Assembly: GCA_944325495.1 (NCBI GenBank)
Contig: CALVAD010000011.1
Coordinates: forward strand, 1-49,943
DNA: 49,943 bases
Direction: 5' to 3'
DNA from: an uncultured Bacteroidales bacterium
GTDB lineage: Bacteria > Bacteroidota > Bacteroidia > Bacteroidales > UBA932
Part shown: positions 26,291 to 48,252 of the stretch, piece by piece
Numbering within the stretch: position 1 is the first letter of the stretch
How the letters are laid out: each line of letters starts with the position of its first letter
Position numbers and translations under genes: made by a program
Notes under the pieces: generated by a model
Told to the model about the DNA's origin: nothing
The model's database searches: none
What the model saw: the letters and a program-made list of their open reading frames with translations, nothing else

Positions 26291-28159
26291 ATGCCACATC
26301 GACTTTTCGAGCTGAACACGATGACGAGAGAACAGCTTGAGACAATTGCAAACGAACACAATGTCAAGGGTGTGAAAAAACTTGACAACGAGAACCTCGC
26401 ATACGCCATACTCGACGCCGAAGCGAAGGAGGAATCCGTGAAGATCGCCCCCGAGAAGCCCAAGGCACGCAGAGGCCGCCCGCCCAAGCAGAAGCCGGAG
26501 GAGCCCGCCCAGGCGGAGGCGGCTCCGGCCGGAGGGGACGGCGGTGAGAATACCGAAACCTCCAAGAGAAAGCCCAGAAAGAAAGCCGGCGAAAAAACGG
26601 AAGAGGCCGCACAGGGCGCCGCAGCACCTAAAAGAAGGGGCAGAAAACCCGCCGCGGCGAAACAGGCGGCAGCAGGCGAAAACGCCACCGCGGCGGCTGG
26701 CGAAGCCGTGACGGCCGGAGGCGAAGCCCCGAAGACGGAAGACACGCAGCAGCCCGTGCAGAAGAAGGCCGCGGCGAGAGGCAGGAAAAAGGCCGGCTCC
26801 TCCGAGCCTGCCGCAGCTCCGGCGGCTGCCGTGTCCGAATCTCCGGAAAGCGCCGAAGGCGCAGCGGCGGAAAGCCAGACGGAGAGGGAGAACAGACCCC
26901 GCCACCAGCAGCAGGAGGGCGAAAGGTTCCAGAAGCAGAAATACCAGCAGCACGGCTACTACAACAACCAGAACCAGTTCCGGCAGCAGAATTTCCAGCA
27001 GCCGAGAGTCAGGCCCGTATATTTCGAGGACACGGTGGAGGCCACCGGAGTGCTCGAGATAATGCCCGACGGCTACGGCTTCCTCCGTTCGTCCGACTAC
27101 AATTACCTCAACTCCCCGGACGACATCTATGTCTCCCAGCAGCAGATCAAGTACAACGCCCTCAAGAGCGGCGACACCGTCACAGGAGAAATCCGGCCTC
27201 CGCGCGAGGGGGACAAGTACTTCCCTCTCGTGAACATAAAGTCCGTGAACGGGCGCACGACCGAATACATCAGGGACCGCGTGCCCTTCGACTTCCTTAC
27301 CCCGCTCTTCCCGGACAAGAAGTTCAACCTGCTGGGCAACGGCCACATGAGTGACGTCAGCTGCCGCATCGTGGACATGTTCTCGCCCATAGGAAAGGGC
27401 CAGCGAATGCTCATAGTTTCTCCGCCCAAGGCAGGTAAGACGCTGCTGCTCAAGAGCATCGCCAACGCGATAGCCGACAACCACCCCGAAGTCTACGAAA
27501 TCGTGCTGCTCGTCGACGAGCGCCCCGAGGAAGTCACAGACATGCAGCGCTCCGTCAAGGCGGAGGTCGTCGCCTCCACTTTCGACGAGCCTGCTGAGAA
27601 GCATGTCAAGGTCGCCAACATGGTCATCGAGAAGGCCAGGAGGCTCGTGGAGTGCGGACATGACGTGGTCATCCTGCTCGATTCAATCACGAGGCTCGCA
27701 AGAGCATACAACACCGTGCAGCCGGCATCAGGCAAGGTGCTGACCGGAGGCGTGGACGCCAACGCCCTTCAGAAGCCCAAGCGCTTCTTCGGAGCGGCCC
27801 GCAACATCGAGGGAGGCGGCTCGCTGACGATTCTCGCCACGGCGCTTACCGAGACGGGCTCCAAGATGGACGACGTGATCTTCGAGGAGTTCAAGGGCAC
27901 GGGCAACAGTGAAATCCAGCTGGACCGCACGCTGGCCAACCGCAGGATCTTCCCGGCTGTCAACATACTGCTTTCGGGCACCCGCCGCGATGACCTGCTC
28001 TACACGAAAGACCAGAGCCAGCGCATCTGGATTCTCAGGAAGCTGCTCGCCGAGATGAACCCCACCGAAGCGATGAACTTCATGCTGCAGCGCATGGACG
28101 AGTTCAAGACGAACCAGGACCTGCTCGACAACATGTCGAAAATATCGCTGCGCGACTAG
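26291..28159 (+). CDS. rho: Transcription termination factor Rho with long disordered insert
   Basis: 622 residues against about 420 in Escherichia coli. A Rho_N helical domain (about 1-45, [21 protein letters not shown]) is followed by about 190 residues of Lys/Arg/Ala/Glu/Pro-rich, then Gln/Asn/Tyr-rich, low-complexity sequence. The RNA-binding cold-shock-like domain (about 248-320) has [20 protein letters not shown]. The ATPase core has Walker A PPKAGKT at 378-384, [13 protein letters not shown] and [15 protein letters not shown]. Rho is a hexameric RNA helicase that ends transcription. Related Bacteroides Rho proteins carry a comparable disordered insert reported to drive phase separation, so a similar role here is a reasonable inference. 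It converges on upp across the hairpin array. Confidence 0.97.
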
Positions 28160-28169
28160 TTTTTATCCA

Positions 28170-28238
28170 GATACGGAATACCTGCGGCCCCGGGCGAGAA
28201 TCAAGGAAAAACCTCCGGGGCCGCAGGTATTTCGTATC
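28170..28238. repeat. 24-bp-arm hairpin directly after rho
   Basis: Left arm 28170-28193 and right arm 28215-28238 are complementary over 24 bp with one mismatch, around a 21-base loop. The loop region read on the minus strand contains AGGTTTTTCC, close to the AGGCTTTTCC of the array that follows. It begins 10 bp after the rho stop and could act as a terminator, although no clear T-run follows the plus-strand stem. Confidence 0.8.
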
Positions 28239-28359
28239 TATTGGATATAAGCTGCAGCAGACCAAGGCGGCCGCCGAAGAAAAGCTTCAGCCGGCGCAGG
28301 TCTTCGTTTTCTGCCAGTTGTCCGGGGCAGGCCGGCTGGATATTGTCCGCCAACGACCG

Positions 28360-28658
28360 AGCGCAGACAGCCGCCTCAACGGAGGCGATAATTTGGGAAA
28401 AGCCTCCGCCGAGGCGGCCGTCTGCGCTCTGAACTGGCCGAGACGGTTGTCAATGAGGAGGCTTTTCCCGAGTTATTGCCTCCACGATGACAGCCATCTG
28501 CATTCCAAACGGGCCGGGGCTGCCGTCAATGAGGAGGCTTTTCCAAAATTGTTGCCTCCACGATGACAGCCATCTGCGCTCCGAACGAGCCGGGACTGCC
28601 GTCAATGAGGAGGCTTTTCCCAAGTTATTGCCTCCTCATTGACGGCAGTCCCGGCTCG
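28360..28658. repeat. Array of four 76-bp hairpin units between rho and upp
   Basis: Four 27-bp cores GGAGGC-15 bases-GCCTCC start at 28381, 28457, 28533 and 28609, exactly 76 bp apart, separated by 49-bp related tails. Cores 2-4 have loops starting TTTTCC; core 1 has the loop in reverse complement. The first and last units extend into long hairpins. At 28360-28386/28402-28428 the arms are 27 bp with three mismatches, and at 28586-28614/28630-28658 they are 29 bp and perfect. Middle units form weaker stems with interruptions. The 28239-28359 stretch before it holds no gene that I can support. Function is unknown; a mobile palindrome family or a bidirectional terminator are the main options. 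Confidence 0.9.
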
Positions 28659-28674
28659 GAAAAAGCCGAAAATA

Positions 28675-29304
28675 CTATTTAGTTCCGAAGATGCGGTCCC
28701 CCGCATCGCCGAGACCGGGCACTATATAGGCGTCCTTGTTCAGATGATCGTCCACCGCAGCCACATAGATGTCCACGTCAGGATGCTCCTTCTGCACTTT
28801 CGCGATGCCCTCCGGCGCAGCCACGAGACACATGAGCCTGATGTTCGTACAGCCGTGCTCCTTGAGCATGGCGAGAGCGTCGCAGGAGCTGCCGCCGGTC
28901 GCCAGCATCGGATCGGTGATTATGACCATACGGCCGCTGATGTCCTCGGGGAGCTTGCAGTAATAGACCACCGGGGCATGCGTCTCCTCGTCCCGGTACA
29001 GTCCGATATGGCCTATCTTCGCCACGGGAACGAGGCTCATCAGCCCTTCGACCATGCCCAGCCCGGCCCTCAGTATGGGCACCACGGCGAGCTTGCGGCC
29101 GGACACCTTCTTCGCCTTCATGCTGCATATCGGCGTCTGTATGTCCACGTCCTCGAGAGGGATGTCCCGCGTGACTTCGTAGCCCATGAGAAGGGATATT
29201 TCCTTGAGGAGTTCCCTGAAATCCTTGGAACCCGTGTCCTTGTCGCGCATGATCGTCAGCTTGTGCTGGATCATGGGATGGTCGATAATGTGCACCTGAC
29301 TCAT
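28675..29304 (-). CDS. upp: Uracil phosphoribosyltransferase
   Basis: 209 residues from the ATG at 29304 ([20 protein letters not shown]); the frame is open 31 codons further upstream, but that part overlaps the AT-rich promoter space. Family signatures are [28 protein letters not shown], and the PRPP-binding loop [16 protein letters not shown], ending near [15 protein letters not shown]. It makes UMP from uracil and PRPP in pyrimidine salvage. It is divergent from a TGS-type nucleoside kinase that probably phosphorylates uridine, so the two salvage routes share an intergenic region. Its 3' end faces the hairpin array and rho. Confidence 0.97.
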
Positions 29305-48142: not shown

Positions 48143-48163
48143 TTCCCGAAAACGCCCATGCAA

Positions 48164-48225
48164 CGAGGCGGACGCTCCCGGCAGGCTTTTCCATAATCCA
48201 TTGCCTGCCGGGAGCGTCCGTCTTG
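48164..48225. repeat. Isolated palindrome of the TTTTCC-loop family between cobW and mgsA
   Basis: Arms 48169-48186 and 48203-48220 are perfectly complementary over 18 bp, extendable to 23 with two G-T pairs (48164-48225). The 16-base loop starts TTTTCC and ends ATT, and is framed by AGGC and GCCT, as in the cores of the 28 kb array. It lies between two convergent genes and could also serve as a bidirectional terminator. Confidence 0.85.
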
Positions 48226-48252
48226 CCGCATTCACGGAACCTTCCGCGAACG

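Follow-up and report, generated by a model that had tools for sequence, protein, structure and literature searches.

A dispersed extragenic palindrome with a conserved loop start in Candidatus Cryptobacteroides and its tandem array between rho and upp

The rho–upp intergenic region

The window, i.e., the whole stretch of DNA analysed here (49,943 nucleotides, contig CALVAD010000011.1), belongs to a genome of the genus Candidatus Cryptobacteroides, which is assembled into 61 contigs with a total of 2.02 Mb and is 89% complete. In the window, the convergent genes rho and upp enclose a gap of 515 bp that is occupied by a series of hairpins. These features, and a sixth copy found alone between two other convergent genes, are as follows.

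26291..28159, plus strand: rho, the left neighbour (TIGR00767, 622.7 bits); the codon-usage gene caller starts it at 26372
28169..28239, minus strand: unit 0, immediately after the rho stop codon; core degenerate, 25-nt arms, 96% complementary
28359..28429, minus strand: unit 1, loop TTTTCCCAAATTATC; 28-nt arms, 89% complementary; model score 81.6 bits
28435..28505, plus strand: unit 2, loop TTTTCCCGAGTTATT; imperfect arms
28511..28581, plus strand: unit 3, loop TTTTCCAAAATTGTT; imperfect arms
28586..28658, plus strand: unit 4, loop TTTTCCCAAGTTATT; perfect 29-bp arms; model score 80.6 bits
28675..29397, minus strand: upp, the right neighbour, convergent with rho (TIGR01091, 300.5 bits); the true start may lie further in, and the gene caller ends the gene at 29295
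48159..48230, plus strand: the sixth copy, with arms unlike those of the array

The cores GGAGGC-15-GCCTCC were re-derived at exact 76-bp steps (28381, 28457, 28533, and 28609), each with a 15-nt loop. The sequence-only reading had described a four-unit array; the four cores stand, but a fifth, degenerate unit right behind rho (unit 0) had been missed. Unit 0 is matched by R2, the broader of the two models described below, on the minus strand at 28178–28230 with 28 bits, and an orthologous hairpin with an intact core is present in Candidatus Cryptobacteroides merdipullorum. The last unit is indeed a perfect hairpin (28586–28614 paired with 28630–28658), whereas unit 1, previously given as a 27-bp-arm hairpin, is imperfect. 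The loop type that all units were said to share is TTTTCCC in units 2–4, but in unit 1 it is reversed, lying on the minus strand.

The strand from 28340 to 28680 folds as RNA with a z value of −13.6, and none of 100 shuffles folds as well. Taken alone, units 1 and 4 form strong hairpins (z values of the DNA fold, −7.8 and −14.0), but units 2 and 3 are weak (−2.7 and −0.6). A 93-nt stretch is present three times at 76-bp steps, with 77–80% identity to the first copy. Local slippage is ruled out as the whole explanation of the array, since copies occur genome-wide, as described in the next section.

Copy number and placement in the source genome

The exact core occurs 32 times in the source genome, as against 4 occurrences of a reversed control pattern. 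We built the covariance model R1 from 27 of the 32 cores, leaving out three whose loops are unrelated, one whose arms are weak, and one unit of a tandem pair. R1 gives at least 99 rows at E ≤ 0.01, corresponding to at least 84 places after both strands are merged; these counts are lower bounds, as 150 of the 897 candidates were scored. The suggestion of a dispersed palindromic repeat, palindromic and extragenic, is thus borne out.

None of the 84 places lies inside a gene as called by a codon-usage gene caller written for this analysis. Forty-eight lie in convergent, 21 in tandem, and 6 in divergent gaps, and 9 are at edges. Counted per gap, in the stretches fetched around the elements plus the window, 38 of 62 element-bearing gaps are convergent, compared with 17 of 169 element-free gaps. 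Many hairpins stand within 30 nt of a stop codon. Relative to tandem genes, the loop is in the sense orientation in 12 cases and antisense in 9.

Conservation of the apex and pairing of the outer arms

Each element has a conserved apex and two outer arms. The apex comprises a loop, in which TTTTCCC is followed by an AT-rich half, and about 4–13 bp of inner stem beneath it; the outer arms in many copies share little or no sequence, yet pair with each other. The information content (bits) at loop positions 1–7 and along the arm, counted from the loop, is as follows.

Source genome, unique-arm set (39 of 49 elements placed): loop 1–7, 1.51; arm 1–4, 1.57; arm 5–13, 0.63; arm 14–26, 0.24, pairing 92%
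Congener G130 (22 of 23 placed): loop 1–7, 1.60; arm 1–4, 0.81; arm 5–13, 0.78; arm 14–26, 0.04, pairing 94%
Congeners G023, G073, and G072 together (18 of 19 placed): loop 1–7, 1.84; arm 1–4, 1.08; arm 5–13, 0.75; arm 14–26, 0.10, pairing 95%

The loop had been proposed to be better conserved than the stems. This holds for its 5′ half (TTTTCCC) compared with the outer stem, both in the source genome and in the congeners, but the 3′ half varies, and in the source genome the four loop-adjacent pairs equal the loop (1.57 versus 1.51 bits). The conservation falls off gradually along the arm in the source genome and more sharply in the other sets; in G130 the step from arm position 13 to 14 takes it from 0.78 to 0.06 bits, with pairing of 91–100% up to position 24. 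As judged from this conservation, the loop probably behaves like a recognised sequence, as the sequence-only reading suggested.

The arms covary. In the source genome, both partners vary in 22 of 28 pairs, a number reached by 9 of 500 shuffles, though the six inner pairs were fixed by the initial search pattern, which left only the outer 22 free to vary. The covariation score is 0.653, which none of 500 shuffles reaches, compared with 0.185 for shuffled arms and at most 0.180 for slid partners. In a genus-wide set, both partners vary in 19 of 20 pairs (3 of 500 shuffles; score, 0 of 500), and 96.8% of the cells pair in an alignment of 25 copies, a percentage that leans upward because the copies were found as hairpins.

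Shuffled outer arms reach a score of at most 13. In 49 of the 84 copies, no comparison of the outer arms with another copy exceeds 12; the other 35 reach at least 13, and tandem copies and subfamilies with shared arms are among them. A set of 24 arms, 22 taken from the 49 copies unlike any other, was searched against the whole source genome; the rows beyond their own hairpins were an array neighbour, rows spanning arm joins (E = 0.006 and 0.29), and further rows with E ≥ 1, one of which is an 18-nt match to the element at C12:6877. Likeness among outer arms is at chance level for 23 elements of G130 (mean 7.3, null 7.6) and above chance for 11 elements of G023 (7.6, null 6.5).

Distribution across the genus

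Going by the ORF that precedes rho, the named records nearest to the source are Candidatus Cryptobacteroides merdipullorum and Candidatus Cryptobacteroides avistercoris, in which R1 gives 50 and 2 rows, respectively, with both strands counted. R1 matches at least 16 of 400 genus genomes, the source included (12 candidates scored in each). R2, with 37 candidates scored per genome, matches at least 23 of 151, i.e., the source and 22 of 150 others, and the matched hairpins share the loop start TTTTCCC. Further copies and loop conservation in relatives, whose absence was to indicate a slippage product, are therefore both found. R2 rows are most numerous in G130 (32), G023 (16), G073 (13), and G072 (9), where the commonest loops are TTTTCCC(C)A(A/T)GTTTTAT on other inner stems. 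The copy number is patchy across the genus, from none found to at least 84. R1 at E ≤ 1e-4 finds nothing in 16 genomes drawn from other families within the order; the R2 search was confined to the genus.

In the other species, 5 of 42 elements lie inside called genes, and the loop relative to tandem genes is sense in 7 and antisense in 10 cases. Two contig ends of G073 (L291, G073:C42; L293, G073:C205) form fold-backs that run through the hairpin, with 128- and 168-bp arms. These are probably assembly artefacts and were left out of the context counts given here and of the conservation counts. Viral carriage was also considered and rejected: one exact pattern occurs in no viral contig, and a looser pattern occurs in two, without long arms by eye.

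Turnover and loop inversion between sister genomes

The rho–upp gap of 515 bp should be compared with that in the relatives, as the sequence-only reading had advised. In avistercoris it is 3 bp. Nine congener loci, this one among them, have upp behind rho. In six of the others the distance to the upp match is 21–76 bp, and in the remaining two the genes are separated by some 550 bp of different sequence; an ordinary A/T-tract hairpin is found in four of the nine (L084, L085, L088, and L139). In merdipullorum (L100/L165), hairpins are present, namely the unit behind rho and, at a contig end, a unit resembling unit 4.

Similar differences are seen elsewhere. The gap holding the sixth copy is 110 bp here and 24 bp, without the copy, in avistercoris. 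Other gaps are 98 bp here versus −3 and −1 in the sisters (L071), 265 versus 2 and 22 (L065), 308 versus 10 (L011), and, at L021, 255 versus 12 and 107 and 236 versus 125 and 61. In none of these gaps does the hairpin account for all of the extra DNA; the surplus ranges from about 26 bp (L071) to several hundred bp. The sisters also have several gaps that are longer than the corresponding source gaps (660 versus 101, 574 versus 469, and 1280 versus 709), so that loss in the sisters is possible.

Of 16 orthologous hairpin pairs compared between the source and merdipullorum, 5 have the loop in opposite orientations. Thirteen pairs were counted first, and the three added ones keep the loop orientation; one of the five inverted pairs is an array unit, whose orthology is less sure. 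Given MAG-like assemblies and the fold-back ends of G073, some of the flips could be assembly errors. In six ortholog pairs, chosen by judgement from the 13 as alignable without gaps, both sides have changed in 7 of 163 arm pairs, compared with 0.9 expected. These both-side changes and loop inversions, together with the many unique outer arms, are what would be expected of self-templated palindromes, in which template switching at the replication fork would make and repair the arms and the apex would only favour fold-back, with neither a dedicated factor nor selection on the arms. That explanation seems quite improbable to us, as it leaves unexplained both the loop kept across the genus and the range of copy numbers, and outer arms generally have no match to the compact sites of the sisters.

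Fixed ends and target-site duplications, as in MITE- or transposon-type elements, were looked for at the element borders. No base exceeds 43% in any of 24 flank columns, and neither a target-site duplication nor a clean border was recognised by eye at the compared sister gaps. An inverted duplication of the target is unsupported overall, with the outer arms in 30 element/sister comparisons giving a mean of 7.3 against a null of 6.8. Two L045 units (shared hairpins), L057, and one L074 unit score above every null value, and L071 against avistercoris (2 of 28 as high) and L021 against merdipullorum (3 of 26 as high) are near the top. Cut-and-paste movement was likewise rejected: among 21 sister hairpins with a TTTTCCC-type loop (20 from merdipullorum and 1 from avistercoris, not all that exist), any arm match to the source is orthologous, belongs to a shared-arm subfamily, or is no better than chance. 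A search of the 24 arms in the sisters was too insensitive to carry weight, missing the known orthologs C37:8144, C38:3423, and C11:28587.

Comparison with terminators and structured RNA

At least six T residues in the next 10 nt, as expected of a T-tract terminator, follow 6 of 168 hairpin ends (3.6%; random background, 1.4%); T-rich ends are thus few, yet above background. A strand-specific structured RNA, one of the candidates put forward earlier, disagrees with a loop whose orientation is unbiased relative to tandem genes and inverted in sister pairs. T-tract terminators and strand-specific RNA are both unlikely identities for the hairpins. Rfam at the gathering score has no match in the window, and in eight element-bearing loci it gives one RNase P and one tRNA match only.

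A related explanation is that the hairpins are selected at 3′ ends, where they would protect mRNA or separate convergent genes, replacing ordinary terminators, with a protein reading the loop. The strong convergent bias, the proximity to stop codons, the compensated arm changes, and the ordinary hairpins at rho–upp in congeners are consistent with this. The scarcity of T-tracts, the unbiased and flipping loop, the lack of an R2 match in 128 of the 151 genus genomes, and the presence of several units in one gap (five at rho–upp) are hard to reconcile with it, and we regard it as rather unlikely.

Relation to RAYT transposases

A RAYT-type transposase had been suggested as the mover. PF01797 (Y1_Tnp) has no match at E ≤ 0.001 in merdipullorum, avistercoris, or the source assembly, although the last is 89% complete and may lack the gene for that reason; no enzyme moving the hairpins was found. 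Of the 16 genomes tested, 12 have a match to the domain; among them are all 6 of the element-bearing congeners and 6 of the 8 congeners without an R2 match. The sole match in element-rich G130 is weak and apparently broken over two frames. None of 30 Y1 loci (2.2–3.3 kb, from 11 congeners) holds a TTTTCCC-loop hairpin by R2 at E ≤ 0.01. GTAG or GTGG heads are not enriched within 12 nt of the hairpin feet (10 of 168, 6.0%; background, 5.7% per 12-mer). The palindromic, extragenic, multi-copy nature of the elements and their clustering in both orientations, as in BIMEs, would fit REP elements moved by a RAYT since lost from, or unassembled in, the source genome. With no domain match in the three closest genomes and the heads and Y1 loci as above, this reading is disfavoured and we consider it very improbable.

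Several congener Y1 loci carry other short palindromes. In five (L309, L315, L316, L317, and L328), a similar palindrome stands on either side of the Y1_Tnp match, and these are likely RAYT/REP units of their own.

Proposed explanation and known systems

We hold, with moderate confidence, that the rho–upp array is a locally multiplied form of a dispersed extragenic palindrome of about 70 bp, whose loop is read as DNA and which is spread by a trans-acting factor. The apex would be recognised in either orientation, as a cruciform or a single-stranded hairpin, by a putative factor that lets the element spread. Copies may survive mainly at gene ends, where they would do least harm, and arm-to-arm exchange would keep the arms matched and occasionally flip the loop. 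At rho–upp, elements may have entered a gap such as the 3-bp one of avistercoris, followed by tandem duplication. Against spread, recently gained copies should resemble their source copy, but 49 of 84 resemble none; selection on structure, and not mobility, may also be what keeps the outer arms paired.

A more specific version is new mobile DNA in which a core of about 42 bp (the 13-bp inner stem with the TTTTCCC loop) is inserted by a loop-reading, non-RAYT enzyme, and the outer arms are built anew at each site as an inverted copy of non-element DNA. The conservation drop after arm position 13 in G130, with pairing retained, is the trace expected from such building. The direct test, comparing outer arms with sister sites, was unsupportive, though those sites had gained other DNA too. 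We judge this version unlikely.

Integron attC sites carry conserved boxes at the stem foot and a variable apex, and work as folded single strands. The Cryptobacteroides hairpins resemble them in having variable stems and a conserved structure, but conserve the apex and vary the stem foot.

The closest known systems include REP/BIME elements, with which REPINs (PMC3116915) are grouped. As described in the accessible part of PMC2817692, REPs are short, multi-copy extragenic palindromes with clusters in both orientations and lineage-specific expansion, features shared by the present family; they carry a GTAG-type head, and RAYT genes are reported there to be always flanked by two REPs. Compared with that description, the Cryptobacteroides hairpins keep the loop, differ in many arms, and have neither a head nor an adjoining Y1 gene. 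Repetitive hairpin-forming elements of sponge mitochondria, as far as the excerpted text of PMC2800124 goes, likewise invade and lengthen intergenic DNA and are scattered among related taxa; their stems are conserved and their loops differ, the opposite of the present case. Small inversions of chloroplast loops, with inverted repeats of 11–24 bp around 5–50 bp (PMC2939885, partial text), resemble the loop inversion between related genomes, but concern individual sites and not one dispersed family with a shared loop.

The dispersed palindrome family, with its unusual conservation pattern, is real, and it is undescribed in the literature searched. By title and the start of the abstract, searches on Cryptobacteroides palindromes gave no description of a TTTTCCC-loop family, and those on Bacteroidales extragenic or intergenic repeats gave no such family, with subscription papers largely outside the search; searches on Bacteroidetes REP/RAYT gave nothing. 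The genus Cryptobacteroides is not named in the accessible parts of RepRanger (PMC12306157) and PMC2267715. Descriptions of the REP and sponge elements compared here rest on conserved stems; a constant loop among many differing arms points to another mode of recognition or copying. The family also provides natural examples of inverted loops and of correction between arms, and it helps account for some convergent gaps in these gut bacteria that measure a few bases in one species but several hundred in a sister species.

Other intergenic hairpins and repeats

A second hairpin type has variable arms and a long structured loop, approximately AGGC-TTGCC..CCGCGGCAGTGAGCGG..GGAGCGCAGCGGAA-CCT. It accounts for 4 of the 84 places (C1:149679, C5:65816, C31:4232, and C31:12903) and is also present in L024, L011, L074, and L008; six such loci scanned have no Rfam match. 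Somewhat similar long loops occur in L101, L113, L149, and L191. Further intergenic repeats, about 60–450 bp long, recur among many of the long gaps, and some of them contain shared-arm hairpins with similar flanks (L005, L008, L009, L022, L025, L026, L056, L066, L069, and L077). Other tandem hairpins are found in L077 (C18:24345, 24511, and 24677), with a period of 166 bp, and in L010 (C5:54777 and 54855), with a period of 78 bp.
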